64,000 nt of DNA, taken from positions 288,183-352,182 of the forward strand of contig JAFCMP010000065.1 in the NCBI GenBank assembly GCA_017506865.1, given 5' to 3'. Each line of letters opens with the position of its first letter. Within the stretch, counting starts at the first letter, position 1. This DNA is from Tribonema minus. Lineage: Eukaryota > Sar > Xanthophyceae > Tribonematales > Tribonemataceae. The notes under the pieces were generated by a model. The model worked only from the letters and a program-made list of their open reading frames with translations. It made no database searches and was not told the origin of the DNA. Shown in pieces: positions 1-27,963 of this stretch. A program made the translations under genes and the position numbers.

Positions 1-206
1 TGCACAATGTAGTTGGTGAAGTGCCGCTTGCTGAAGCCAAAGTGCGCAAATAGGTTGTACTTGTGCTCATCAAACAGGTAGCTGCACAGGCTGACCAGGG
101 GGTGACCACGGCTCAGCTCATCCAGTAGGAACGCGTCAAAGTCCCACTCGTCAACCTGCGCATCAAGATGTGTTTTCATATAAGCATATAGGTATGTATG
201 TATTGT

Positions 207-620
207 GTATTACAGGGTGGCCACGGCTCAGCTCGTCCAGCAGGAACGCGTCAAAGTCCCACTCGTCAACCTGCAGGACGCCACAACGCTCAGCGTGAGC
301 ATGTAGGTATGTATGTATAGGTATGTATGGCATCACTGGGGTGACTGCGGCTCAGCTCATCCAGCAGAAATGCATCACAGTCCCACTTGTCAACCTGCAC
401 GCCATGATAACGCTCAGCGTGAGCCTGAGGGTAGGTATCTGTATATATAGGTATGTACGTATCACTGGGGTGACCGCGGCTCAGCGCGCTCAAGTTCCAC
501 AGGTCCAACTGCATGCCATCACAACGCTCAGCTTGAGCCTGTGGGGCATATTAGATGTACTGGGCCGCTGCTCAGCGTGTCCAGTAGGGAGGCGTCCCAC
601 TCAACCAGTTGTGCTCATGA
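207..620 (-). repeat. Tandem array of decayed copies of the PDE exon 8 5' edge
   Basis: Upstream (minus-strand sense) of the exon at 155-1 lie four further copies of its first ~55 nt together with its acceptor and flanking intron. The exon/intron boundaries of the first three are near 270, 394 and 509, and a degraded fourth sits around 553-605. Spacing is about 115-124 bp. Each unit holds a version of the antisense exon string GGCTCAGCTCATCCAG followed by the antisense acceptor CTGC and a shared intron stretch (AACGCTCAGCGTGAGC). Similarity decays with distance from the real exon. Confidence 0.75.
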
Positions 621-737
621 TGAGGGCATGTGTGTATATCGCATGATACACGCTACTCCCATCAAACAGCACTGTTGGAGAGCGCATCGATGTGCCGTCA
701 GTCACTGGTGTCCAAAACAGGCTAGTGGCTCCACACC

Positions 738-800
738 CTAGCCTAACCCTACCACCGATCCTAACCTTAACCCTTGCCCCACCCTTGACCCTGATGCAAC
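738..800. repeat. Degenerate telomere-like C-rich repeats
   Basis: A run of imperfect CCTAACCCT/CCTTAACCCT units. Similar isolated units occur at 33284-33300 and 18075-18125. They may be interstitial telomere-like sequence or simply C-rich intron DNA. Confidence 0.35.
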
Positions 801-1439
801 TCATGGAAGTGCTGAGCAGCAGCCCATGCTTTCACCATCAGCAGCATGCCTGGCACATGAGCATCATATGGCACCCGTCCACTCATTTGGAACACTCGCG
901 CACTAATTCAGCGGTGTATCCCAATGCTCGTTGCCACTCGCAGAAGGTGCACTCCATCCATTGGTTCATTCATTCATTAATGCATCCATCCAGTAGTTCA
1001 TTCAGCTATCACGTCCATCTGCAGGGCACACGCGCGCGCACCAGCGCTCACCTTGCACAGCAGCTGGAACAGCGCGTCCCCATCATCCCCCGCGACAGGC
1101 TCGGCACGGCCGTCACCGCGGGACTGCCACCAGCAGCAGCGCTCAAAAACGCTGCCGCCGGCATGCCCTCCACGTGACACAGCTCAGCGGTGCCGCCGCA
1201 GCGTGCAGTGTCGCCGCCAGTCTGGGAGGCGCTACGCGGACTGGATGGTGCGTCGGCGTTGCCGCTGCCGGGCTGGCGCAGCAACGAGATGGCGGCGCGC
1301 TGCGCGGTGTCTGCGGAGGAGTTGCCGTTGTGCGCCGCGCTGCTGTGCCGGCGCACCTGCAGTGCACAGGTGGCGAGTGCGTGAGTTGAATGACTGGGTG
1401 AGTTGAGGGGGTGAGTGAATTTTTTGGGATGTGTGAGGG

Positions 1440-1590
1440 ACTTGCCATCGCGCGCCGCGCTGATGTGAGGCCGCCGCACCTGCGCGGAGCGGTTGATGAG
1501 TGAGTTGAGTGAATGGGTGAGTGAGTGAGTCATGGAGTGAGTGAAGAAGTTGCCATCGTGCGCCGCGCTGCTGTGCCGCCGCACCTGCGA
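1440..1590 (-). repeat. Two extra copies of the PDE exon 7 5' edge
   Basis: Relative to the minus-strand exon starting at 1356, two more copies of its first ~40 nt plus acceptor lie upstream, with boundaries near 1479 and 1584 (spacing 123 and 105 bp). Both keep the antisense GCGCCGCGCTG...GCCGCAC-CTGC pattern of the real exon edge. Short GAGT-rich repeats separate the units. Confidence 0.7.
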
Positions 1591-7999: not shown

Positions 8000-10900
8000 T
8001 TGAAGCTAGAAACGGCACCTGGCTGTGTCGGGCCCTCGGAGACAGCGATAAGAGGCAGGCAGGCGAAGGGCGAGAGGGGGCGCAAGCAGGCGCAGCAGGG
8101 AGCTCAGTTGGCGCGTGTGTACGCGCGCACGCAGTCGGATTCCATGGGGGGGCGCACGGCGCCTACGATGGCCACTCACAGGTAAGTGATTGGAGTCACG
8201 GTCTGTCGCCTTGGGCGTGTGAGCCTGGCACCAGGGGTAATAATGCCTGGTTGGCTTCACGTACGACTCAAGAGAGTGATAGTCATTGCAAATCTTTGAG
8301 GCAGGCAGCATGCACAACGGCCACCGCTTGCCATTCACGAGCAGGTAAAGAAAATGTTGCTTACACGCTCAAGCAACACCACCACCAACTTCTTGCCAAG
8401 CTGGTGAACACAACCATTCCTCTACAGACGTGCAGTCGCCTGCTGGAGCATCCTATGCAGACAGCACCGGCAGCATCACGCCGCTTGGAGTTGAACCTGA
8501 ACCGCTGATGGTGAAGTTGCTGGACATTGCTGGACACTGTTACAAAAACGACACTGTGAGCACTGATGATGCATGCTGATCTACGGCAAGGCACCGTCAC
8601 GTGCAAACACGGAACCTGCATTCCGAAGCGGTGCACACACTCCACGTCAGAAGCGCGCTGGTGAAAAGTCAAAGCTGCAGTTGCCAACAACAGCGTATAC
8701 GTAAGTCTGTCAGCTTCCGTGATTTGGGCTGATCACTTGTGGGGCTAACAACGCCCTGAACGCGAGTTCGATTTCTACGGGAAGCACAATGTGAACAGTA
8801 CAAATTAACTAGCTTCAGCAACCTATAAAAAGATCGCTTTATACCACAACGCCCCCCCCGGCCGCAGGCTGAGCCTGAAGGACATTGCGCCCATGGTCGC
8901 CGCCGCGGTCAAGACGCGCAGCAACAACCACAGCGGCTCCGGCCCCCCTACGCACCCCGGCGCGCGTGCGGACCTGCACAACTGGAGCAGCGGCGACGCC
9001 AACTTCAACAACTCCAGCATGGGGCACGAGAGGGGGGCGAGCCGGTCCATGGGGGGGGGTGCGCAGCCGCCTAGCGGGGGGCGCAGGGGGAGCTTCCAGG
9101 GGAGGAACGCCATGCCGCGCACGCGGTCCGCGGCGCGGCGCTTTGAGACGATACCCATCGAGAAGCCGGACAATGAGACGTGAGTAGTGGCTGCATGTGT
9201 GTGCATTGTGCGTACGTGGCTGCTCGTCATCGAGTCAAACATATGGTTTGCGGTATATGTAGGGAGAGTCGCTGTATGCAGGGATGGCTACCGGTACCGG
9301 TGATGCCCCATTGGTGTTGCGTGTCATATGCCATGCTGTTGGCCGTGTCGCTTTGAAGCGATGCATGGCCGCCTGTCGAGTGGCCGAACAACGAGGCGGG
9401 AGCGGAGCACTGACTGATGGTGTTAACCCTAAGCCTATCCTGATGCTGCGACCGCGTTGATGTTAGCAACTGCTTGGAGCTGCTGTCTGATTTGGCTTTC
9501 ATTGGCGTTATTCACGTGTTTGGCAGGCACAAACGTGCCACGCAATAGGTGTGCTGGCAGCATGACTCTTTGGCTTGGATGAATGGTCACAAAACACAGC
9601 AGCCCGCAGAAGAGAAAACACACACATAGTGCTCTTGCAGTGATGGTCGGTCGCAACAACGGACCCCCCCTTGCGCACACTCGCGATTCCCCCCCATCAC
9701 CTGCAACCCGTTTGCCGCATCCGACGCCCCTCTACGCTGATTCACATCACAATCTCATAATCGCAGATTCATGACAAAAGTTGGTTGTAACAAGCCATCA
9801 CCTGACGCCCTGAGCACTGCTGCACCATGTCAGTGCTCGGCGCCACGGGCGGATCCCCCTCTCAGCCCCTGTCATTCATGCTCACGCCCCCCGCACCTCC
9901 ACTTGTTGACTCGTTGACTCGAACTCGACTCAGACTCATGGAAGACTCGCGGGTGGCGCTGGAGTCCTGGTGGCTGAACGCTGTCGTCCTGCTAGCGGCG
10001 GGTGCGGCGGTGGCGCTGGCGGTGCTGCTGTATGTGAGGGGGGAGGGGGGTCCAAACACCAATCTGGGGGACCCGCTGCGGGCGGCACAGGTGGGCAAAT
10101 AGTGTACTTCAAGTGCATACTTCAAGCTCGCAGTTGCTTTGAAAGCATCGAATACATCCTCTAAGCGGAGGTATACTTTGAAACAATGAGTGGTACATCC
10201 GAAAAATGGCGTTGTTGTGACCTACGTACGCAGTTGATGTTCACACATGGCAGCTTTGTATGCTACAGAAGGTATACTTCTTAAAAGGCATACTGAAGGC
10301 TTTGTTCGTTTAGCAGTCAAGTTGTGCTGACTTCTGCGCATGTGAAGGCCAGTGACAGGTGCACCAATATTGACCGACCGTCTGTTACATGCGCCAATGG
10401 GAAAGGCGGTGCGCTGCATGCAGCTTATGAATTAAGCAGCAAAAGTTGGCATTTGACACTAGTTCCAGGTTTCACATAGCAAGGCAGGCCTGGCGTAATC
10501 ACATATCCAGCCACGATGACATCAGTGGCGATGGACTCAGTACACCACTTCCGCGCGTACATGGGTGTACCGCATGTGAAAATCTCACTACTTGCACGAC
10601 ATTGATGTCATTCAAGACTTCAAAAGTCAGAAGTGATGGTCAATGGTACAGGGACACATTGTCAAAAGGTTCATGTAGATTCTGCTACTGAGCTTGACAT
10701 CAGCCAGCCCTGTGTTTTTTGGGCGCCCTGAGTGAGAACAACATGCAAGTATGTATCTGGATTCAATTTTTTTCTGGGCAACACGCTTCCCGTAACAAAA
10801 CGTCAAACGCTGCAGCTATGGTAAACTCTTACGGTGGAGCAATCACAGAGTTTGCGGCCCACGCATGCGCTGCTATCGCAACATGGATATATCGCGTCAG

Positions 10901-13900
10901 CAGAGATGCTTGTAGCGTAACATATGGTGTGACTGTGGCGAGGGAAGGTGAGCGTCAAGAATCCGGTGACCCTAATTCTGACCTTAGGGCAAGAGGCTGG
11001 GCACAGCGCTCGGCTTTGCATACGTGACACAGCGCCCACAACACCTGGCATCCGCACCAGCGCAGGTGCTGCACACTGTGGAATGCCCGTGGATCGCCTC
11101 TGCGCGCACTTCAAGTGCGTTGTGTTGACGTCCAGCTCAACAGGTTGAGCGCCGCTGCCGTGCGTGTGTGTCCACGCACTCGCAGGTGGCCATCGCGTCG
11201 TGCTTCCTGGCAGAGCTGGTGGTGCGACTGCGCGCGTTCGGCCTGAGCTACTTCAGCGAGTGGTTCAAGGTGCGCATTGTTGAAGTTATCATGATCGAAC
11301 CTGTCATCCTGAAGTTGACTTTCCTGCTGTTGGTTGTGCTGAACTTGCTGCTTGAGCCCATATCAGTGGCTTTCAAATTGCCTGAAAGTCCTCATATGGA
11401 GCTTGACAGCGGCTGCATCCGTGATATGCTGCAGCAACCTTAGTGTTGCGCGTTGTTGCAGGCGTGGTGACGTGTCACAGCCAGTGCGTCAAAGAGGTTC
11501 TGAGCGCTGTGTTGGTGGCGTTGAGGCGTGCTGTGTTGGCGTGAACCTGGCACTAACTGTGTGAAGCGTTGTGCACTCTCAGCTGACCTGTTTCAGCTTC
11601 CGTCCTTGTCCCTTTCTCAACGCAATGCATCCAATGCCTGTGTCCGTCTCCTGCTGCCTCTCTCTGTCTACCGTACCTTCTCTCTGTTTGCCCTTCCAAA
11701 TCTAGGTCCTGGACTCTTTTGTTATTGTTTCCGCCTTTTCGCTGGTCTTCCTCACACCGGCGGCGGGCTTGGTGTGCTTCGGCCGGATTGCAAGGGTACT
11801 TGGGCCGCTGATGACGTGGATCCACCCCCCCGAAGTGCTAGAAACGGTACGCAATCTGAAGTGTCTGGTTGACTTCTTTGCGAGTGTGACATTGCGCGTC
11901 AGAGTTGCTGAGCACTGCTGCACACTCGTGTGCACGCGGCACGTCGGATTGCAATCTGAACATGTACATACATACTCCGAAGTATACCGTTGGATTGCGG
12001 TCTGAAGTTGTGCATGTGACATACTTCGGAGTATAGCATTCACTGAGATGGCCGGCACACGGCTCAAGTCATCTCTCGACATACAGAGGGGGGGGGGGGG
12101 GCTGCTGCCCCCCTGCCAAGAAGTGTGTGGGCCTTGGAAACCGGTACTTGAAAGAATGTGTGGCGTTTTTTGAACTTCAAGTTCAAGTGCAAAGACGCGC
12201 CTGGCAGCACATGTGCGCCCCTAGTAATCATGTGACACTTTTATCGCGTCATCGCTGCACAGTAGCAAGCGCACAAGGCCCCCGCAGTGGTGTTGTACCG
12301 CCGCGCACGAATCAGTACTTTAACTTCAACTCCAATGCAACAAACGCACCCGGCAGCACAGCGCACTTTTGATAATCTGTGCTGCCTCAAACTCACCATT
12401 ACCACGCAGGAGCAAGCATGCGAGGCCCCCGCGGTGGCGCTGTACTGCTGGAGCGCACAATTCAGTACTTCAGCTTCAAGTTTAATGCGGGCAGCCACTG
12501 CACCCGTGATAATCTGCGCTGCCTCGAACTCGCCATTACCACGCAGGAGAAAGCATACAAGGCCCCCGCTGCGGCGCTGTACCGCCTGCTGGCGCGCACG
12601 GTCCTGTACTGCAACTTTTATTTGAAGTATGGCATATTGTGCGCCTGGTGGCGCAGTGCAACCCTGATAGTGTGTGCTGCCTCGCACCCAATGCCATTGC
12701 TGCGCAGGAGCAAGCGTACGAGGCCCCTGCGGTGGCGCAATGTAAAGACGCGCCTGGCACAATGCGCCCCTAACACGCTGCCTCGCACCCGCCATTGTTG
12801 CTGTGCAGGAGCAAGCATATGAGGCCCCCGCAGTGGCGCTGTACCGCCTGCTGGCACGCACGATCAAGAGCAGCTGCAGCGTCTTCACCGTCACCGAAAA
12901 GAACGCGCTGCGTGACCTCATGTTCCTCCTGGCGCACCACCAGATCTACGTCGACATGGACATGCAGCGCGCCAACGCCGCGTACTGGAAGGAGTACGGG
13001 TCACGCCAGGTGACGTTTGTCAACCCTTGACCCTACAGCTTCAACGTAGATGACTTTTGTGTGCTTGGTTTGTGATCAGCTTCGTGCTGTCATGTAGGGA
13101 AGTTCGCGTGTGGCCTTGTGGAGGGATATGCTTTTGCTCAGGTGCAGGCTTTGCTCACCAGCTGGTACTATACCGTGATAACAGTGAACAGGGGGGGGGG
13201 GGGGGGGGAAGGGGGGGGGGGGGGGGGGCTAGTCAATCTAGTCTCCCATGCACCCCTCTATCCATTGGCAGAAGCGCAGAAACATCATTTTCAGGGATTG
13301 TCACAACTCCACGCTCGGAGTCGTTGCTGACTTTGCTCCGACTCCGCTGTGACCGGAGCAGAGTCGTAATTGTTTGAGCCGTCTGATTGCTCCTTGAAGT
13401 CAGATTTGGAGTCGGTCAACGATTGATGCCCGCTCCCCGAATCGGAGGCAGAGCCGTTCAGCGCACGAGTCACAGTTCCGCAGAGCAGAGTCAGAGACGT
13501 TCAGGTGTTGTGGAGTCACAATAATCCCTGATTATTTTTGGTAAGTGGCGTGGCAACTGGTATGGCCGGTCAATTATCAACTGTCAATATGGGCCGCGCA
13601 CCCGTGCTGACGCTCCATTTGCAGCACAACTTCAATATGTAACTTCAAGAGACAGGAGGGCACAAATAGACTGCGCGCCTTCAAGGGGCGGATCAGCAGG
13701 GCCAGCAAGGCGGACCCGCCCCACTCATTCACTCACTCGCTTACTCACCCGGTCACTCAAATTACTCCCTTTGAGCTGATGCGCAGGTGCGGCGGCACAG
13801 CAGCGCGGCGCATGACGGCAACTCCTCCGCAGACGCCAATGACTCACTCACTGACTCACTCACTCACTCAACCACTCACCTACTCAACTCACTCACTCAC

Positions 13901-16900
13901 TCACCACTCACACACAGGTGCGGCGGCACAGCAGCGCGGCGCACGACGGCAATTCCTCGGCGGACGCCGCACAGCGCGCCGCCATCTCGCTGCTGCGCCA
14001 GCCCGGCAGCCGCACCGCCGACGCACCATGCAGCCCTCGCAGTGCCTCTGGCGGCGACACTGCACGCGGTGGCGGCACCGCTGAGCTGTGCCACGTAGAG
14101 GGGATGCCGGCGGCAGCGTTTGTGAGCGCTGCTGCGGGGGGCAGTCCGCATGCGGTGACGGCCGTGCCGAGCCCTGTCGCGGGGGATGACGGGGACGCGC
14201 TGTTCCAGCTGCTCTGCAAGGTGAGCGCTGGCGCGCGTGCGCCCTGTAGATGGACGGATGAGTGAATGATTTAGCGGATGCGTTGATGGATCACTTCCTG
14301 TGCATGGACGAATGATCGGCCGAGGTGCACAGAGGCGCGAATGACTGTACAACGTGCGACTTTTATCAATGAACGAATGAATGAACGGTCGTCCGTAATA
14401 CTTTTGTGCCCAGCCTGCTGTGAATCGGTGACGCAAGGAATTAAAGGTATGTTAGAGGTGACAACTGGTACATGCATACACGTGATGTGTACTCCTAGTA
14501 CATACCCACACGCCGATATCGAGCGCGTTCATGCGCCCAAGCCCATCAGAGAGTTTCTGAGAGGGATCTCCTTCAAGAGGGATAACCTTTCAAGCGGGAT
14601 CCCCTGCTACTGGGCGAGCTGCGCCGCAGCGTCTCGCCTGTGAATCTTATACCACTGTGCATACCTGCCCAAAGGCTCACGCTGAGCGTTGTGATGGCGT
14701 GCAGGTCGACGAGTGGGACTTTGACGCGTTCCTGCTGGATGAGCTGAGCCGTGGGCACCCCCTGGTCAGCCTGTGCAGCTACCTGTTTGACGAGCACAAG
14801 TACAACCTATTTGCGCACTTCGGCTTCAGCAAGCGGCACTTCACCAACTACATTGTGCAGGTGAGGCACGCCGTACCCTCTGTGTACATTGTCTATGTGC
14901 ACATATGACTCAGAATTACAAGTACAAGTGCGTATGGGTCACAGGCACTGCATCTGGCACTGCAGCACTGCAAGTTATGCGAGCGAGGTTCAGAGTGCGA
15001 ACCAAGTAGTGATATCTTCCCTCTGCTGCATATCATGAGTCTGCACAAACTCCCAGCCCAGATACTTTGAGGTCACTGCAGGCCCCAATGCATGCGTGTG
15101 CCACGTTGCTGCCCATGGCAAGTGTGCCATCTGTCCAGTGCCTAGCGTGCATTGAGCACAAGCTGCGTTCACCGCGAATTGGCCTTGAGCAGTTACTAAG
15201 GTCAGGGACAACGGGTAGAAAGACGGCCAGGGTGATGGATACAGTACTTGCATTGTCATGCGAGTAATTTCAGCATGTTGAGCACTGCTACCTACTTGCC
15301 TGCGTGGCAGCCTTGCTGATCGCAGAGGCGTGCGTCTTGCAAGCTGCCATGCGCCCTGTTGTATCATGCCTACATACCCTGCTAACGCTGCTGAGCTCTG
15401 CTGCAACAGATCGAGGCGGGCTACGGCAGTGGCCTCAGCAAGGGCTCCGTGAACATACCCTCTGTATGTATCATACCTACATACCCTGCTGACTCTGCTG
15501 AGCGCTGCTGCAACAGATCGAGGCGGGCTACGGCAGCGGCCTCGGCAAGGGCTCCGTGAACGTGTACCACAACCGCAGGCACGCGGCGGACGTCACGCAG
15601 GCGGTGCACTACTTCATGCAGGTACGGGGGCTGTATAATGTAGAAGTGCGTGTACTTTGGAAGTATATAGAAGTATAGAGAGCATGTGTGTACATACCAC
15701 AATCGCCGGTCTGTGAAGGATCGCACACAGGCGGTGCACTGCTCGATGCGAGTGACCGGGCGAGCACTGCGCGCACGCGCATCGTGCACGTGGAGTCTGC
15801 TGTGTTGCTCATGGTGTACCTGCCGTAACAGTTCACTTGGTTGACAGGCATGTGTGAAGCGTCAGTCTGTCAAGAGCGCACAAAGTGACAGTTACTTCAG
15901 AGCATATACATCTGTTTTTGGTGTGGAGGTCGTGCTGAATGGTTGCTCATGGTGCACCTAACTGCCGTGACCGTGCTCTGCGTGAGTATGCTCCACATGA
16001 GTATGCACTGCATGTGCCATCTGAGCAGCTCATTTGCAGACACTGAGGTGATGCAGCCTTCCATTCAAAATCTCTCGAGTTCTTCGGCCTGCTCATCTGC
16101 TAGAGCAGCATCAGACTACTACGTCGGAAGATACTCCCGGAGCACAGTGCTCAGCAAAGCTTAAATTGCTTGCTGATACAGGAGCTGACGTGCACCCCTC
16201 TGCCTGCAGGTCTGCCACCTGGGCGCATCACTGACGGACATTGAGATGATCAGCCTTCTGCTGGGTGCCATTGTCCACGACTTCAAGCACCCCGGCCGCA
16301 GGTGAGTGCTGAGCACTGCTTCCATTTTTGCGCAGCCGATTTTTTTTGTGAAAGCGTCTATAACACTCAGTCATTTCATTCCTTAGCACATCGGCGGCGT
16401 CTGTGACAACGCTGGTCACAAAGTGCGACTGCTGCAGCTGACAGCACCAAATTCCAATCAAGCACCCTGAGCACAACTGCATGCTGAGCAGTGCGGCATT
16501 GTTATTATATACGTCTATAAAGTATAGCGGCGAGCTCAATGCATACGTTCACGTCCTGTCAATACCAACAACCACCACACGTGTAGCTGTGCGCCAGAGC
16601 ACTGAGTTTGCCGAAGTATGCACCAGAATGCAACTTGAAGCTCGTGTCGCACCTCAGAATTCTGGCGCCCCGATCGCTGGCCACAATCGTCACCACTGCA
16701 GTGAACAAGCTGTATCCGAAGCGATTTGTTGGCCGCTCACCAATTGCACACAGGATTGACGAAGACTTTGAAAGCAGCGATGATCCATACCACAACTGGG
16801 CACAAGTCAAGGTTCATGCACCGCTGCAAGTCTGCGTGGAATATGTTTTTTGAAGTAATTATAATTTATCACCAGCCTCCGTGCGGCTATGGTGCAGGGG

Positions 16901-19900
16901 CGACTTGAGTGTGTTGGGGCCATGTACTGACGCGGCAGCGCTCTTTAACGCCCACATCTCAGCAACTTCAAAGCTTTTAGCCACTTGGCTGTCGCAGAAA
17001 ATGGGATTCGTAGCACGTTGGTTGTGCAATGCATGTTGTGGGCAGCATCATCAGCATGTGACACTCCTGCTTTTGGTGTGACGCTCCTGCTTTTGGTGTG
17101 ACGCTCCTGCTTTTGATGTGGCACTCCTGCTCTTAGTGTGACACTCCTGCTCTTGATGTGACGCTCCTGCTGTTGGTGTGACGCTCCTGCTTTTGATGTG
17201 AAGCTCCTGCTTTTGATGTGACACTCCTGCTCTTGATGTGACGCTCCTACATTGAAATCCTTGACTGCTCAAATATACTGACACCCGCTGTGTTTCGTCA
17301 CGCATGTACCGCGCAGCAACGCGTTCTTGATCAAGACATTCTCTGAGCTGTCGCTCGTCTACAACGACGTCAGCGTGTTGGAGAACTTCCACATCAGCGA
17401 GGTACCGTATTTGAAGACGTCAATAACCTATGTCGTTGCAAGAGTACTTTGTATGGTGTAATATCAGGAAGCTGAAGACGTCCACACACATGTATGGTGT
17501 AATATCAGGAAGCTGAAGACGTCCACACACAAATGTATACACACAAAAGGAGCCATGTAAATGAAATTGATGTGTCTCCAAAGGGAAACCTTGAGGTCCA
17601 TACTTCATTGATGTACTCCACCAGACGTGCACAAAAAGGAGGAATATTTAGACTGACCAGGCAGTGCGATCATTTGCAGTTCTTTTTAAGGTGAAATTGC
17701 ATGCTCCCTTCAGCATGCTGGAGTAGTTCCTGCTGTTTGTACTCGGAAAGCGTAGTATGGACTGCACATGTTGCAATACAGTGTGGTGGCATGGATGCAC
17801 ACATGCATCAGCAGCCACAGCTGTGATCATAGCTAACGGCTGCTCGTATGCTGTATGCACACCCTGTGACAGGGCTGGTGCCTATCCTGTCACTGTGCAT
17901 TGCGACGGATCTCACCCCCCCTACGCCTGCCATCTTATTGTGGTCACAACCGTACCATTTTGCCACGGTGTGATTGATCACATTTGCCAGAAGTAGGATG
18001 GTGATGCTCAGTCATGCTGCTCCCTTGCGCAGTTGGTGCTCCTACTGTAATCTCATGCGCAATGAGCACGCTACTCCTAACCCATGCCCCTAAATTTCTC
18101 TGTGCCCATACCCCTAACCCTACGCCTTACTCAATAACCCATTTGCGTATTTACCCCAATGCGAACTCTCAATGTGTGCGCACGCCTTCCTTGTCCGGCA
18201 ACACTTCATGTAGCATCATGCACAATGTGCGCCCCGCACCTTGCCCACTCATCTGCACGATTCTAACCCTCACTTTAACGCTACTTCTGCATGCAGGCCT
18301 TCCGTGTTCTGCGGCAAGATCGCTGCAACTTCATGCGCAATGTGGACCCCGCTACCGTACGCAGCATCAGGGACACCATGATACCGCTGGTGCTGGCGAC
18401 AGACTTGAAGTTCCACTTTGACCTCCTGGGGGAGTTCAACTCGCACCTCACCGACATGCGCACGGAGATTGGAGAGGAGAGGTCAGTTCAAATATTACTT
18501 GAATTATCACAGTTCCAGGGTGGCAGCAGCTGGGTGACCATGGTTCAACCACTGCTGCCATTGCCGCCATTCTCTTTGCTTGCGCGTTTGTCTGACTGTT
18601 GTTGCGCCGTGTGCACTGTAGCGCCATGCGTGTACTAGGTATGCATGGACACGAAAGGGCTCAGAGTGCTGTGGAACTGCTCAGACGAAGTGCCGACCTC
18701 TCAGTGCAGCTGTAACCTCAAGCGGTGACGCACCCCTACCTTGTGTTTGTCTGTGTATGTAACGCATATTGAACTGCATTTATGTGACGCGTATTAAACT
18801 GCATTTCAAGAGTCGCAGATATTGCGGCTCACCCTTGCAGTCTTGCAAACCTCAACAGGCTAGCAAGGCACACGATCACCATTTGCCGCATTGTTTGCAT
18901 CACAGACAAACACTGGCCTATAGCTGGAAGCAGCACCAGCCGATTGCTCTCCATTGTGTTGCCTTGCTTGCTGCATGCGCCGTGCCACCCGCCATGCTCC
19001 ACGGCATCCTTGCTGTTGCATTGCAAATTCTATTCTATGGCCGCGATGCAACAACAGCTGATGCGTGGCTTGCACTTGCCCACCTACGATCTGGCCTGCT
19101 CGATGCACGCACCATGCCGCCGCATTGCGCACCTGTGCCAAGCCTCCACAATTTGTCCACGCTGTGAATTCAATTCTGCGGGAATGTGACAACGCCAGCT
19201 CATGGCTCACTCAAGCCTCTGTTTTGCTGCTCTGTGCATGCGCGCTTTTGCAGCAAGACGCGCACGTACATGTCTGCCATGAAGATCTGCATGAAGAGCG
19301 CAGACATCAGTCACCCCACGCGACCCATGTTCCTGCACCTTCAGTGGACAAAGGTGGGTCAGCGATGCACGAGTTCTGGTCGTCATCACGGGTGTGCGAT
19401 TGAGCTCTACGACCAGCATACTCTATGCCCAATGAGGGTCTGGCTGTAATCTGCACTGCCTCAGTCACGGACAGCTCAAACATCGGCTGTGTTTTGCACA
19501 TACCCCCCCCCCCTTCCCATGTGTATGTTACACTGCACTGTTGAACTCGAGAGCAATCGTTGAGGCTTTGCTTATTCAAAGTGTAAGCTACCCTGTGCAC
19601 GCAATGTTGCTGTCACCTGATGCTTGACGTTGGCAACAGGCAGGGACTAAGCGTGCCAGCCGTTAGGCGCAGAAGATGGCCTGCTCACAGCCCACAACCA
19701 TGCAACAGCTGTGCTGCGCCAATATTTGCATGACACGTAGGGATTGCACGAAAGCATGATTGGCCACACCAATACGGCGTATTTTGGGGCGTATTTGGCA
19801 ACCAGGAATATGTCTTGAGCAAACATAAACATGATCAGATGCTGCGCGAAAGGCGTATTTGTGGGGCATGCGGTGAGTCTGCTCGATTCCAAGCATACAG

Positions 19901-21833
19901 TCAACTACAAAAGGGGCACTTGAACTCAGTATTGCTTCACAATTCGCTTTTGTGCAACCCCAATGACATGTCTATTCTGGCATACACTGCACCGGAATGG
20001 CGTTTGCTGCGACATCACTCCAAGGTGACCACTTCAAGTATGCTGCGCGGCTACTGCAAAGATAAATGCATTGTACATCTGTCCTTGTTTACAAGGTACG
20101 CTAATGCGATGCGTCTGCGCTACAAGGGGCACTTGAGTGATGAGCATCACCACCTTTCTCACCTGCATGATGAGCGCCATCACTTGCATTTGTGTTGAGC
20201 ATCGCCACCCCTCTCACCTGCGCGCCCAGGGTGCAATGCCGCCGCCAATGATTGTAACTGGTGTCCTTCGTAGCCTGTATGCATCACACTTGTCTATTTG
20301 CTGCCTTGCCGCAGGCCGTAATTGAAGAGTTTTTCCTGCAAGGGGACGAGGAGAAGCGCAGGGGGTTGGAGGTGAGAGGGTGGATCGCACATGAGAAACA
20401 ATTCCCGTACTGTGTGAAGTGTTTTCCTTGAAGTATGTTTACTTGTCACAATTACCTTCAAACCTGCAAGTGATCTTTTTCAGTCAGCAGATCATCACAT
20501 CACAGATGCGCTCAGCATACATTGCCCTTGTACTACATATGCTTTGAGCTCAAGCCGTGCGCAGGAGCTTTGGGTACACCCACGATAGCAGGTTGCCAGA
20601 GCGTGGGTAGCATTCATCGAGTGCAACATCAACTTCGCACGCCTGGTTGAACCCTTAAAGCTGGCCTTCGACACAGAAGTGTCCAATGTCGCGTCATGTG
20701 ACCCATGTCGCCCCTGTATATGCTGACACACACTGTCGTACCGCCATGTGCAGATAAGCCCACTGATGGACAGGGACACAACGGCCATTGCGGACTCTCA
20801 GAAGGGCTTCATCAACTTCCTGGTCAAGCCGCTCTTCAAGAGCTGGGTCAGCTTCCTCAACACGCCTGAGGCCCAGACGTGCCTCACCAACCTGGAGGTA
20901 TGTAGATTACGCACATACGTCGTACAATATCTCAATGAACTGAACAGCACATGTAGAAGCAGCACATGTAAAACATATTGTACGTGGAGCCCTCCAGCCA
21001 GCTCCGCTCAACCATCATACTGGTGGCCAATTTACTTAAGGCACAGCAGAGTATAGTGTTACCATGTCCCATGTGCGTATGCGTCACCAATAGCAATGGC
21101 AATTCACTCTGGCAGATCGTCCATGATACCATCATGACCATCAGCCCATGGCCCTCAATTGACACGCCCCGGTGCATCGGCCAGCTGCGACGCACTCCCT
21201 TCATCCGTGCGCCCTATGGCACTTCTGCTTCGATATGGCAAGTGCCCACGCAAGATGATGTAGCAACAGACAGCATACTCCCCCTCTTCCCCGCTCCTGC
21301 CTCCGCAACTTGACTTCTGGTCTAAACCTATCTCGCGCGCCGTGTCCCAGGTCAACGAGGCCATGTGGGTGGCCAAGGAGAAGCGCGGCGACGACACCCT
21401 AGAGGCACTGGTACCCGACCCCCCTTCCACGCGCTCAAGCACGGGGGCACGCACCAGCATGCCCGCAGGCGGCGCCGCTGAAGCTGCTGCCGCCATCGCT
21501 GCCGCCGGTGCCGCCGCTGCAAATGGCACAGCTGGTGCCGCGGGGGGCACTGCAGCGGCGGCGGCGGCGGCGGCAACGCACCCGCAGCAGCATGCGCCGC
21601 CGCAGCAGCAGCAGCGGCAGCGCTCGGGTGGCGCTGAGCACTGCATCATTGACGTGGCGGGTGGCGGGGAAGAGGAGTCGTCGGCGGTCCTGCCGTTCTC
21701 TGAGCGGCAGCGCAGCAGCAGCGGCGGCAGCGGCGGCGGCGCCGCGCACGTGCAGCTGCAGCTGCCGCCGGCGGAGCGGCATTGGAGTGGCAGCGGCGCG
21801 ACGGAGGCGCCGGAAGGGCCCATGGAAGTGTAG
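8000..21833 (+). CDS. Voltage-sensor domain-cyclic nucleotide phosphodiesterase fusion protein (16-exon model)
   Basis: Exons: 8000-8181, 8868-9179, 9934-10033, 11186-11269, 11706-11846, 12809-13009, 13918-14220, 14705-14860, 15517-15621, 16210-16301, 17317-17401, 18297-18481, 19254-19353, 20315-20371, 20754-20897 and 21351-21833. Every junction is AG/GT and all phases agree; the sum is 2,730 nt (909 codons plus stop). The product should be a membrane protein that hydrolyses cAMP or cGMP. Exons 3-5 encode four helices resembling the S1-S4 voltage sensor of Hv1 channels and voltage-sensing phosphatases. Exons 8-15 encode a full class I PDE domain. The tail (exon 16) is Ala/Gln/Gly-rich and probably disordered. 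Start choice: ATG 8000 is the first in the frame of exon 1, but 8144 or 8168 are possible and an earlier exon cannot be excluded. The S1-S2 loop looks too short, so one phase-0 exon between 10034 and 11185 may be missing from the model. Confidence 0.85.
9934..11846 (+). other. Voltage-sensor-like domain (S1-S4) exons of the PDE fusion gene
   Basis: Exon 3 gives a hydrophobic helix (WWLNAVVLLAAGAAVALAVL), taken as S1. Exon 4 gives S2 with E and R four residues apart (AELVVRLRAFG). Exon 5 gives S3 with an Asp (VLDSFVIVSAF), and S4 (LVCFGRIARVLG) with two Arg at three-residue spacing. The spacing from the S2 Glu to the basic residue (+4) and on to the S3 Asp (+17) equals that recalled for Hv1 proton channels, where these residues form the charge-transfer centre. 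S1 lacks the Asp that gives Hv1 its proton selectivity and S4 lacks the first Arg, so proton conduction is not predicted. A sensor role like that in voltage-sensing phosphatases is the better inference. Confidence 0.7.
12263..12808 (+). repeat. Tandem array of exon 6 5'-edge copies upstream of exon 6
   Basis: Four copies of the exon 6 start with its acceptor precede the real exon (boundary 12808/12809). Their AG boundaries lie at about 12262, 12409, 12546 and 12707 (spacing 147, 137, 161 and 101 bp). All continue with a GAGCAAGC-type start and AGGCCCC. The second and third copies match ~50-60 nt of exon. Intron flanks are shared as well, for example AATCTGYGCTGCCTC-type strings. All but the first retain the CAG|GAG acceptor. 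A long minus-strand ORF over this interval is a shadow of the repeat. Confidence 0.85.
13187..13227. repeat. Interrupted long poly(G) tract in intron 6
   Basis: Two G runs separated by AA, together about 37 nt, inside intron 6 of the PDE fusion gene. Confidence 0.9.
13726..13917 (+). repeat. CTCA microsatellite and one extra copy of the exon 7 5' edge
   Basis: The copy begins after GATGCGCAG at 13787 and reproduces about 55 nt of exon 7 (GTGCGGCGGCACAGCAGCGC and on) 131 bp before the real exon start at 13918. ACTCACTC repeats fill the remainder on both sides. Confidence 0.85.
15303..15516 (+). repeat. Near-identical 107-bp duplication of the exon 9 acceptor and exon start
   Basis: The acceptor CTGCTGCAACAG and about 45 nt of exon 9 (ATCGAGGCGGGCTACGGCAG and on) occur at 15410 and again at the real start, 15517. 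The preceding intron (CCTACATACCCTGCT) is duplicated too. Few mismatches indicate a recent event. A decayed piece of the exon 9 end (GGCGGTGCACTGCTCGATG) also lies downstream near 15730. Confidence 0.85.
16005..16065 (+). repeat. Decayed copy of the exon 10 start in intron 9
   Basis: GTGCCATCTGAGCAGCTCAT followed by a GACACTGAGGTGATGCAGCC-type string resembles the exon 10 start (GTCTGCCACCTGGGCGCATC, then a GACATTGAGATGATCAGCC-type string). It lies about 195 bp upstream of exon 10. Confidence 0.5.
17056..17250. repeat. 20-bp tandem satellite in intron 10
   Basis: About ten head-to-tail units of GTGACGCTCCTGCTTTTGAT with small changes (GACACTCC, CTCTTGATG). It lies about 70 bp before exon 11. 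Confidence 0.9.
18184..18296 (+). repeat. Decayed copy of the exon 12 start in intron 11
   Basis: CCTTCCTTGTCCGGCAA, CTTCATG, ATCATGCACAATGTGCGCC and CCGCACC line up with the exon 12 start (GCCTTCCGTGTTCTGCGGCA, AACTTCATGCGCAATGTGGA, CCCCGCTACC). The copy is about 112 bp upstream of the real acceptor at 18296/18297. Confidence 0.65.
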
Positions 21834-24271: not shown

Positions 24272-27212
24272 TTATTGGCGCGCTGTGAAATGTGCCATGG
24301 TTGCGGCGGTTTGAAAGCCAGTCGGCGCTGCGCCATCGTCTTCATTCTGCAGTTGGGAGCAAACGCAGCGAAATCGAGGGAGCAAACGTGAGATACTTTC
24401 TCACAAGTGACTGAGAGATCACATGACATTACCATAGCTCACGTATATTTAGATAGGCCAAAAAGCAGGCCGCAGTGTGTCGTTGCGATGCTCAGTCAGC
24501 TTCAGTACTCCCTGGTACAAGACACACCGCACAAATCACGCCTGTGTGTGGATTTGAAAGCAAATGTAGGGCACAAGTGCACTGCACGTCTTCACGACAG
24601 GCATCATCAGACACAGCGTACACTTGAAAATGAGGGCATTGTTGGCGCTGCAGGTGTTTTTCATCATGCGCATCAGTGATGTGACACATGAGCTTGTGAG
24701 CACTGATGTCTGTAGTTCCAAACAGTAAAGGTTCACAAATGTAAATACACAGACTCTTTGTGACAATGAAGTGGCAAGAGAGTGCGGCGTGTCTGTCGAG
24801 AGATGTTGACCATGATATCAGCGACCTACTGGCAAATGAGAGTTTACAGTCATTGTCAGCAGCGCTGCATACTTTGAAGTATTCCTTTGCAGGTCATGTA
24901 TACTCTCTACAGCAGGCACCCTCTCTGACTGTGTGGTACATCTGCTACGCCAACGTGCATACGTTCACCAGCGAACAACCAGAGTTGAAGAGTGACGGTT
25001 GAAGATATGTTCGGGCGTGTCAAATGCTCACCTCATATTCTGCAGAGGCGTCGGACACATAGCCGTCTGCTTGCACAGCTGCACGAGTCGCCTCCGCCTC
25101 TGACTCAGACACCGCCAAGTCAGACTCTGCCTCAGCCCGCGGAGACCCTGAGTCAGACTGAGAGTCTTGGTCAGACAGCAGCCAAATTGCTTCATCCCCT
25201 TGGTCCTGTGGGGAAAAACATCACCGATATCAGGAGAGCGCAATGAGGCCTAGGCTCTGCCTCTCGTGTGATTGGGCAGCGCTACACCACCAGCTGTAGT
25301 CATTATCTACAAGTCATGTAGGTGAGCCAAAAGTAGGCCTGCAATGATGTCGGCACAGCGCACTTGCTGTCAGTGATACTCTATTGTTCGCTTGGTACAT
25401 GGACAACACTTTGCAAGTAGCACATTGTCATGTTCGTGATGATGACGTACATAAATCAGAAATGCTGCGCGCGTGGTCATCTCAACATGCAGCATACCAT
25501 CGTAGAGGGGCATGAGGAACCACAGATGGTTGCGTTTTTCATGATGCGCAACGGCAGTGCGACACAGAGCATACACCGAGGTTTAATGAATGTGAATGCA
25601 CACTTCACCTGATGAAATGAGATCACTGCGGCTTGATCTTGACAACAATCTCCAATTTTGACAAAATGGGCAACGCCTACAGCCAAAGCGGGTCGGCTGT
25701 CATCGTCAGCAGGGCTCAGCCTGCCTGCTTTCTGACAGCCCATCACTGCTCATCCTCTGTCTCTCTCTCTCTTTCTCTCACACACATGAGCGCCAACACG
25801 TGCTTGCTCGTCAGCAGCCAACTAGAGTATGGTTGAAGTGTGTCAAAAATGCTCACCTCTTCGGCTGCAGTGGGCGCATCATTGTGCACAGCTGCAGGGG
25901 TACCATCCGCCTCTGCCGCCGACTCAGCCTGAGGCCCGCCTGCAAGCTCTTGCAGGACCTGCTGCCCAGGCTCAGTCTCGCTCAGGTGAGGGGGCTCGTG
26001 CTGCTGCTGCTGCTGCTGCTGCTCTTGCTGCTGCGCGCGCCGCTGCTGCTGCTGCTGTGCCCGCTGCTGCTGCTGCGGCGGCGGGCGCTGCTGTGGCTGG
26101 CGCTGCTCATGTTCCTGCTGCTGCAGCACCCGCTGCTGCCGCTGCTGCTGTGGCTGCTGCTGCTGCTGCTGCTGCACCTGCCGGCCCTCCTGCTGCTGCT
26201 GCGGAACCCGCTGCTGCTGCTGCTGCTGTGGCTGCTGCTGCCGTGGCTGCTGCTGCCGCACCTGCTGGTCCTGCTGCTGCTGCTGCTGCTGCGACGCATG
26301 GGGTGCGCCGGCCACATTGTAGGGGGCACGCGTCACACATACCCCCCTGCGTGCAGCCCAGGCCTCCAGCTGGCGCCAGTCGCCCTCCAGCTCTGCCACC
26401 TCATCTTGCAGCCAGGTGTCCACCTTGGCGCGCCACTTGTGCTCCTGCCTGCGTGACCACTCCGCCAGCTCCGCCCGCTGCTCCGGCGTGGCAAAGGTGC
26501 AGTCAACCTTCAGATTCGAGATCTGCCTCCAGCGCTCGAACTGCATCCAGCTCTCGTGCACCACGAAAGCGGTTTTGTTGGCGTAGCGCAGAAAGTCGGC
26601 GCGCCTGTCTGCCTCCGCCTGCCACATCTGGTGGACGGTGACGCCTCTGAAGTCCTGCTGCAAGCGCTGCTCCTCGGCGATGAGCGCTGCCGCACGTTTA
26701 TTGAAGGCATCGAGCTGCTGTTGCCGCTGCTGCTGCGACCATTGCGACCGGTCAGCAGTGTTCAGGAGCCGAGCCCTGGCAGCCGCGATCCTGCCCAGCA
26801 GGCTCTGCACATGGTCGTCCATGGAATAGTAAAGGTCCAGCACACGCGGATCTGGGCGTAACTCCTGCCAGCTTGCGTGCACCGGTGGCTGCTGCGGCTG
26901 CTGCTGCTGCTGCTGTCCGTGCTGCTGCGGCTGCCGGTGCTGCTGCGCCTGCTGCTGCTGCTGCTGGTGCTGGTGCTGGTGGTGCTGCGGCTGCGGCTGG
27001 GGGTACTGCGGCTGCTGCTGTTGCGGCTGCTGCTGCTGGTGGTGGTGGTGGTGGTGCGGCTGCAGCTGTTGGTGCTGCTGGTGGTGCTGTTGGTGGTACT
27101 GCTGGTGGTGCTGCTGGTGGTACTGCTGGGGGGCGGCGGCGACGGCGGCAGCGGCAGAAGAAGTGGCGCCAGCTCCAAATGCGGTGGCGTCGACAGCAGC
27201 ACCCCCCTTCAT
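24272..27212 (-). CDS. Polyglutamine/His-rich protein with a central charged, Trp-rich region
   Basis: Model: exon 27212-25857, exon 25205-25032, terminal exon 24346-24272 (stop TAA). All three joins are phase 0 with GTGAGC donors and CAG acceptors. Domain order: Ala-rich start (MKGGAAVDATAFGAG), a Gln/His tract, then a non-repetitive charged region of about 220 residues rich in Trp, Arg and Glu. That region includes WQELRPDPRVLDLYYSMDD, MWQAEADRRADFL and EWSRRQEHKWRAKVDTW, and is probably helical or coiled-coil. A long Gln tract and a Glu/Asp/Ser-rich acidic tail follow (SDQDSQSDSGSP, ASAEYE, NEDDGAAPTG). I recognise no catalytic domain. Such composition fits a transcription or RNA-associated factor, but that is inference. 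ATG 27212 is used because no acceptor was seen just upstream. The gene could instead be the 3' part of the locus at 27964-29973. Exon 1 could also read on past 25857 to a stop at 25743 if unspliced. Confidence 0.6.
25990..26300 (-). repeat. CAG/CTG trinucleotide-rich tract, second Gln tract
   Basis: Interrupted CTG repeats on the plus strand encode polyglutamine on the minus strand. The first Gln/His tract of the same exon lies at about 26880-27130. Ala- and Leu-rich ORFs on the plus strand here are shadows. Confidence 0.85.
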
Positions 27213-27963
27213 TGCAGCAAGCAGAGCGGCGGCGGCGCAAGACTCAGCCGTGATGATTGATGAGTTTCGAACTTGAAGCAGTGGGCGCTTAAGCTGCCGG
27301 TGCTTGATGTGGTTTCCAAGTTCAAGCCAACACGAGGCTCTGCTGAGGCTGACTGCCGTGACCCCCCAAAAGCAGATCGGCGGTTTTGGAGCTGCTGCAT
27401 CGTCATCCGCTCTGCACGTGACAGTGTGCTGAGTACATGCATAAGCCTGCCACCAGCAGTGCAGTATGGAAAGCGGACGACGGCGCAGGTGAAACCGCCG
27501 ACCTACTCCCAGGGGGTCACGGCTACCAGCAGCGTGGCGGGCTTGAGATAGCCTCGTCGACTCGCATCACAGCAGGCAGAAACGCACTAAGTGCGTTGAC
27601 CGGTTTCCAGTGTCCGCATGTGCACACCATACACGATCGTATACAATAGAAGCATCGATGCCATGCATAATGTAACAGCAATGACATCATGATGATCCCT
27701 CAATTGTGTCATCGCCTGCAGGCCGTACTTTGCAGTCCGTTGGTCTGCAGCACTTTGGTACACTGTTCCATCATCTACAAGCGTCGACTCAGCACAAGAG
27801 ACCATTTCTTCTACTGGCCCCAGCATCTGTCCTGCAAATGTCAAACTGCATGTTGAAGAAGGCTCCTGCACGCTTTAGCAACCAGGGACTGGCTTAGTGG
27901 AACACCACATACTGTACATTGTACTTAGAGCTCTGTACTGAAACTTGAAGTTTGCTTATGTAC

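Follow-up and report, generated by a model that had tools for sequence, protein, structure and literature searches.

A predicted cyclic-nucleotide phosphodiesterase of Tribonema minus with an N-terminal membrane domain of the voltage-sensor type

Enzymes that are directly driven by a voltage sensor are few. Besides pore-forming channels, a 2023 review names only sNHE, a protozoan adenylyl cyclase, the voltage-sensing phosphatase (VSP; Ci-VSP) and Hv1, with a Figure 1 legend that claims to give the topology of all voltage-sensor domain (VSD) proteins reported until then and a main text in which a term search does not return the word phosphodiesterase (PMC10651576). VSD-type domains on cyclic-nucleotide enzymes occur in stramenopiles and alveolates, including the Phytophthora proteins PPTG_13136 and PPTG_13761, according to another paper (PMC12223298). 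Among the matches listed from the open-licence PMC literature, a scope to which subscription papers and preprints do not belong, no voltage-sensor phosphodiesterase is described, in agreement with an earlier note on the present DNA, which knew of no characterised voltage-gated phosphodiesterase. The DNA in question is a stretch of 64,000 nucleotides of Tribonema minus (contig JAFCMP010000065.1, positions 288,183 to 352,182 of the forward strand), hereafter called the window, and the gene of interest is predicted to encode a membrane-bound cyclic-nucleotide phosphodiesterase (PDE) whose N-terminal segments S1-S4 would constitute a reduced voltage sensor; that membrane voltage changes the hydrolysis of cyclic AMP (cAMP) or cyclic GMP (cGMP) by this protein is given an even chance.

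On the plus strand, an open frame of 872 amino acids in 16 exons, re-derived from the strand, runs from the ATG at 8168 to the stop codon at 21831-21833. All exon joins are GT-AG and the frame is unbroken throughout, the sensor and PDE exons standing in one phase as previously maintained. The protein begins with a cytoplasmic N-terminus, after which come four membrane segments; a conserved linker then leads to a complete class I cyclic-nucleotide PDE.

A Pfam scan of the joined protein minus its first five residues returned only two domains above the cut-off, Ion_trans (residues 115-216, E 2e-7, 30.9 bits against a cut-off of 25) and PDEase_I, and no Guanylate_cyc domain, a profile check that bears out the architecture proposed in the earlier note. 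Within the membrane domain, Glu171 of S2 is followed at +4 by Arg175, Asp192 of S3 stands at +17 from Arg175 and S4 reads CFGRIAR (Arg216, Arg219), which confirms the Hv1-like spacing and the GRIAR motif recognized before. Phe168 lies at -3 from Glu171, a position that a phenylalanine also takes in the charge-transfer centre of Kv and Hv1. The S1 of the window protein (WWLNAVVLLAAGAAVALAVLLYV) contains no acidic residue at all, so that the aspartate reported missing from this segment is indeed absent, unlike S1 of the relative P0002, which has a glutamate.

The S2-S3 part aligns gap-free to human Hv1 (5oqk), at a weak single-sequence score (E 0.042). With a family profile built from nine S1-S4 sequences, a search of the whole PDB sequence set gave 99 matches at E up to 10, the best 60 of which are all members of the voltage-gated superfamily, Hv1 or VSP, with Cav channels in the lead, Hv1 (5oqk) at 2.3e-4 and Ci-VSP (4g80) at 9.6e-4. 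AlphaFold, provided with an alignment of 41 rows, models the Chrysoparadoxa relative P0004 with four helices (95-117, 121-155, 157-175 and 179-203), in line with the four-helix sensor bundle anticipated from the exons; ten-residue blocks over residues 81-200 have a mean predicted local distance difference test (pLDDT) value of 81-94. Most of the PDE4-like domain of this model has a pLDDT above 93, falling to 51 and 77 in places, and the 50 best Foldseek and 50 best VIA matches of the full-length model are all PDEs. An earlier model, based on a ten-row alignment that included the mis-spliced database prediction P0001, had a mean pLDDT of 41 and was set aside; its best 50 Foldseek matches contained poor PDE superpositions only. 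Hydropathy of the window protein peaks at S1, S2 and S3. Judged by sequence, its descent and its counter-charge network mark S1-S4 as a voltage sensor, with a reduced S4.

With respect to the enzyme, the PDEase_I match extends over residues 468-705 (E 1.1e-78) and covers profile positions 1-237 of 238, consistent with the complete class I catalytic domain seen before. Comparison with PDE4C shows this domain to be of a PDE4/PDE1-like type with its predicted metal-binding residues intact, as the metal-binding and purine motifs YHNRRHAADV, HDFKHPG, KSADIS and SQKGF are all retained; these motifs presumably hold the metal-binding His/His/Asp/Asp and the purine-selecting glutamine.

A database search with residues 100-310, comprising S1-S4 and the linker, recovered the protein's own prediction and three relatives at E of 6.9e-54, 2.9e-42 and 9.1e-41, so that this combination is not a chance product. 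With the Chrysoparadoxa protein as query, nine rows were obtained, the query among them; S1 and S2 are missing from the models of six, P0005-P0010. Linker and PDE together match 671 proteins at E up to 1e-10, and relatives beyond the first searches were drawn from the best 120 of these. Several of the nearest of them show the pattern of S1-S4 again, namely P0012 (Ectocarpus), P0014 (Scytosiphon), the environmental P0015 and P0016, P0017 (EukProt, S1 missing), P0011 (Undaria, S2 missing) and, from Triparma, P0019 and the incomplete P0020. The predicted fused architecture is shared by Chrysoparadoxa, brown algae, divergent proteins of Triparma and environmental contigs. The contigs of P0002, P0015 and P0016, of at most 2763, 2788 and 2640 bases, each carry a complete coding sequence and appear to resemble transcripts, with little room for introns. 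In a tree built by maximum likelihood from 28 PDE domains (midpoint-rooted for display only; P0033 and P0087, which failed a pattern, left out), the window protein falls into a group of 13 rows (97/95) which adjoins Triparma-type PDEs with weak support (79/70), its nearest row being Chrysoparadoxa, an ochrophyte of the PX clade. This placement, together with a nuclear fragment of plastid rbcL (L016, about 1500-1690; G000:C334:714136-714324) that is taken to be of the red (form ID) type, makes an ochrophyte the most likely source and replaces the green-algal setting assumed in the earlier note.

Conservation of the sensor residues was counted in a family alignment of 18 rows, in each case over the rows in which the given segment is present; P0001 (mis-spliced), P0013 (no N-terminus), P0018 (an incomplete copy), P0022, P0026, P0027 and every PDE more distant than these were omitted. 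All 11 rows with S2 have the S2 glutamate, eight of them with phenylalanine at -3 and nine with a basic residue at +4. The S3 acid is present in 12/12 rows with the start of S3 (11 Asp, one Glu) and the first S4 arginine in 18/18, while the second S4 arginine, at exactly +3, is found in nine of the 18, namely in the window protein, Chrysoparadoxa, P0002, four brown-algal-type rows, P0015 and P0016.

Between S4 and the enzyme lies a linker of 60 residues with the pattern PAVxLYxLLxRT...EKxxLRxLMxLLAHxQIYVD...AYWKEYG. Among the four closest members (six pairs), its mean pairwise identity is 0.66, compared with 0.78 for the enzyme, 0.37 for S4 and 0.27 for the next spacer. This conservation comes close to that of the enzyme and would suit a coupling role better than that of a tether. 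A correspondence of the linker to the upstream conserved region (UCR) module of PDE4 is unsupported (hhalign P 0.54), and the comparisons with fungal-type transmembrane PDEs (P 0.0085) and with PDE1 (P 0.013; two sequences) are weak and not relied on. A protein kinase A (PKA) consensus RRxS[FLI] precedes S1 in 8/8 near members with an N-terminus, at a distance of 41-44 residues in six of the seven measurable members and of 55 in Undaria, the model without S2; in shuffled N-termini the motif arises in 2-6% per protein. RRxS[FLI] is lacking ahead of S1 in P0015, P0016 and P0019, which are more remote members, while P0020 is modelled without an N-terminus. Downstream of the linker, the window protein, P0002, P0003 and P0004 carry a second RRxS site, and both sites may be phosphorylated.

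The preferred interpretation of this putative fusion is that voltage may control hydrolysis, a tentative one in view of an S4 with one or two charges. A change in membrane voltage would move the S4 arginines by about one step past the S2-S3 centre, where Phe, Glu and Arg of S2 and Asp of S3 presumably form the charge-transfer centre. This movement would be relayed via the conserved linker to the catalytic domains, which are probably dimeric, and the hydrolysis of cAMP and/or cGMP would thereby vary with the membrane potential. As a feedback, PKA may phosphorylate the RRxS-phi site before S1; the long forms of PDE4 have a comparable PKA site. Since the window S4 has two charges only, the voltage sensitivity is expected to be weak and graded. 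That ochrophytes possess a whole family of voltage-controlled PDEs, in which the membrane potential sets cAMP/cGMP breakdown and PKA feeds back on the same enzyme, is plausible, but falls short of an even chance.

Several observations weigh against voltage control. The S4 is charge-poor, with two arginines in the window protein, which occupy the second and third S4 charge positions in an alignment with Cav1.3 read by eye, leaving the first, fourth and fifth empty; the second arginine is missing in P0005-P0010 (one close group of six), P0003, P0019 and P0020, hence in 9/18 rows. Moreover, linker and enzyme are better conserved than S1-S4, hydropathy of the window protein gives no separate S4 peak and flags stretches of the soluble PDE as well, and the protein on its own draws five weak PDB matches, of which the one to Hv1 is the best. 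Among the members scanned, the window protein alone passes the Ion_trans cut-off: P0004 (with PF00520 in its database entry) reaches 24.5 bits against 25, P0002, P0003, P0012, P0016 and P0017 reach 16-22 bits, and no match at E up to 1 is found in P0011, P0014, P0015, P0019 and P0020 or in P0005-P0010, the models without S1 and S2. Of the voltage-gated PDE proposed in the earlier note, the part that stands is the fusion of a voltage-sensor-type S1-S4 with a complete PDE, which is neither a VSP nor Hv1; the gating itself is weakened by the poor S4.

As half of the aligned rows are without the second S4 arginine, the strongest rival, and a serious one, is a membrane module that descends from a sensor but is insensitive to voltage. 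It might serve as an anchor and perhaps dimeriser, for example in a flagellum, or sense a lipid or a partner, with the enzyme controlled via PKA and linker. Faster divergence of S1-S4 than of linker and PDE, Ion_trans scores of the relatives under the cut-off or absent, and conserved RRxS sites as an alternative means of control all speak for such a module, to which a substantial minority of the probability is assigned. On the other hand, the S2 glutamate, the S3 acid and the first S4 arginine are kept wherever the segments exist, none of which a plain anchor would need, and nine rows keep the second arginine at its exact spacing. It is improbable that the domain conducts, with a gating-pore (omega or proton) leak arising from the absent S4 charges and a current that controls the enzyme or is controlled by it: S1 of the window protein is without an acidic residue, unlike Hv1 with its D112, although P0002 has a glutamate there, and the 18-row alignment contains no conserved S4 histidine. 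Least probable are two adjacent genes, a sensor-like one at 9.9-11.8 kb and a PDE at 14.7-21.8 kb, joined on paper only. In favour of this, the S3-S4 exon is left out of P0001, which nevertheless links S1-S2 to the PDE, and PDEase_I and Ion_trans genes are reported as neighbours in Euplotes (PMC8670190); against it, the same order is found in the single proteins P0002, P0003, P0004, P0012, P0014, P0015, P0016 and P0019, three of which (P0002, P0015, P0016) lie whole on the seemingly transcript-like contigs of at most 2.8 kb.

The gene model (Table 1) departs in two points from the earlier one. Coding sequence extends beyond the limits 9934..20897 given before, upstream into exons 1 and 2 and downstream into exon 16; translation might instead start at the ATG at 8144, which is in frame. 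For the S1 exon, the donor at 10090 is preferred over that of the junction 10033/11186, because it keeps 19 residues of the S1-S2 loop that match P0002 (VRGEGGPNTNLGDPLRAAQ in the window protein, VERGDGGLEDLSDPLRAIQ in P0002), which the donor at 10033, although also in phase, drops. P0001, the database prediction on the same contig (941 amino acids), skips exon 11706-11846 and uses intronic repeat copies; it is taken as a probable mis-prediction, since P0002, P0003 and P0004 contain the sequence of this exon.

Table 1. Exons of the predicted sensor-phosphodiesterase gene, in window coordinates
Feature	Position	Strand	Content
Exon 1	8168..8181	+	MATHR..., probable start codon; relatives begin M...THRLSLKDI / M...NRLSLKDI
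Exon 2	8868..9179	+	Cytoplasmic N-terminus; LSLKDI motif; PKA consensus RRGSF (Ser80, codon 9091-9093)
Exon 3	9934..10090	+	S1 (residues 121-143) and S1-S2 loop; basis includes homology to P0002
Exon 4	11186..11269	+	S2: Phe168, Glu171 (11213-11215), Arg175 (11225-11227)
Exon 5	11706..11846	+	S3 Asp192 (11712-11714); S4 Arg216 (11784-11786), Arg219 (11793-11795)
Exon 6	12809..13009	+	Conserved linker (residues 241-300), S4 to PDE
Exon 7	13918..14220	+	Variable linker; second RRxS site RRHSS (Ser308)
Exon 8	14705..14860	+	PDE catalytic region begins
Exon 9	15517..15621	+	PDE signature YHNRRHAADV (Tyr473 at 15565)
Exon 10	16210..16301	+	Metal-site HD (His514 at 16276)
Exon 11	17317..17401	+	PDE
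Exon 12	18297..18481	+	PDE
Exon 13	19254..19353	+	PDE; metal-site Asp629 in KSADISHP (19303-19305)
Exon 14	20315..20371	+	PDE
Exon 15	20754..20897	+	PDE; purine-selecting Gln680 (SQKGF; 20799-20801)
Exon 16	21351..21833	+	PDE end, low-complexity C-terminal tail, stop codon

Repeats and partial copies accompany the gene. The 5' end of the linker exon is present in five copies of 61 nucleotides at 12259-12865, four of them in the preceding intron and the fifth being the real exon start at 12805-12865, with 61-100% identity to the reference copy; P0001 takes some of the intronic copies as coding. Just upstream of exon 9, a partial duplicate of its 5' end (15407-15457) is likewise coding in P0001. 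An inverted second copy of the PDE part occupies window positions 1-1587 on the minus strand and extends upstream beyond the window to about 6.3 kb (L009), its aligned pieces having 86-100% amino acid identity, with one piece of 51% over an apparent insertion. It corresponds to the database model P0018, its frame is seemingly broken near 1099, the S1-S4 and conserved-linker exons are unmatched in it, and it is probably a pseudogene. A genome search with S1-S4 and the linker found the window gene and one weak S1-like fragment on contig C67 (L022, G000:C67:318559-318660, minus strand), 68% identical to the S1 region and with an internal stop, perhaps a fragment of another copy. Stretches of 7-10 kb around PDE genes elsewhere in the genome (C12, C190, C544) gave no S1-S4 match of at least 25 bits beyond one at chance level (26 residues in L013, E 0.64). 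Further downstream in the window, a long CAG/CTG-rich stretch (25980-27250, minus strand) could encode a glutamine-rich protein.

Compared with PDE4 and PDE1, the window protein has an added membrane domain and a linker without similarity to the PDE4 UCR, and a histidine replaces the asparagine that follows AD(I/L)S in PDE4. Other membrane PDEs, such as those of Blepharisma (P0034), fungi (P0024 and P0053) and EukProt P0108, share a hydrophobic N-terminus before a class I PDE, but lie outside the 13-row group, and the two that were scanned (P0024 and P0034) have no Ion_trans match.

The voltage-sensing phosphatases Ci-VSP and TPTE have the same layout of S1-S4 sensor, linker and cytoplasmic enzyme without a pore. 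Their enzyme, however, is a PTEN-like phosphatase, of which no domain above the Pfam cut-off is found in the window protein, and the S4 of Ci-VSP carries four to five arginines compared with two here. With Hv1/VSOP the window protein shares the S2-S3 spacing and its best single-sequence PDB match; it differs by the S1 without an acidic residue and by the large C-terminal enzyme. S4 variants with one or two arginines would provide a natural test of the minimum charge of a sensor.

A domain of voltage-sensor type is also attached to a cyclic-nucleotide enzyme in the VSD or ion-channel cyclases that occur in ciliates, apicomplexans and Phytophthora. PMC10651576 describes the protozoan cyclase as having a K+ pore, whereas S1-S4 of the window protein leads directly into the linker. 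In the same genome, four Guanylate_cyc matches are listed, all on contig C115, along with 39 matches to cNMP-binding domains; by eye and without a family scan, no S1-S4 pattern was seen in open reading frames of at least 90 amino acids in two of the three Guanylate_cyc stretches. While the cyclases are annotated as makers of the messenger, the window protein would destroy it. If voltage control holds true, the electrical state of the membrane and the removal of cAMP/cGMP would be tied in one molecule, which might be used as a naturally occurring component of voltage-controlled cAMP tools and would represent the degrading counterpart of the stramenopile voltage-sensor cyclases.
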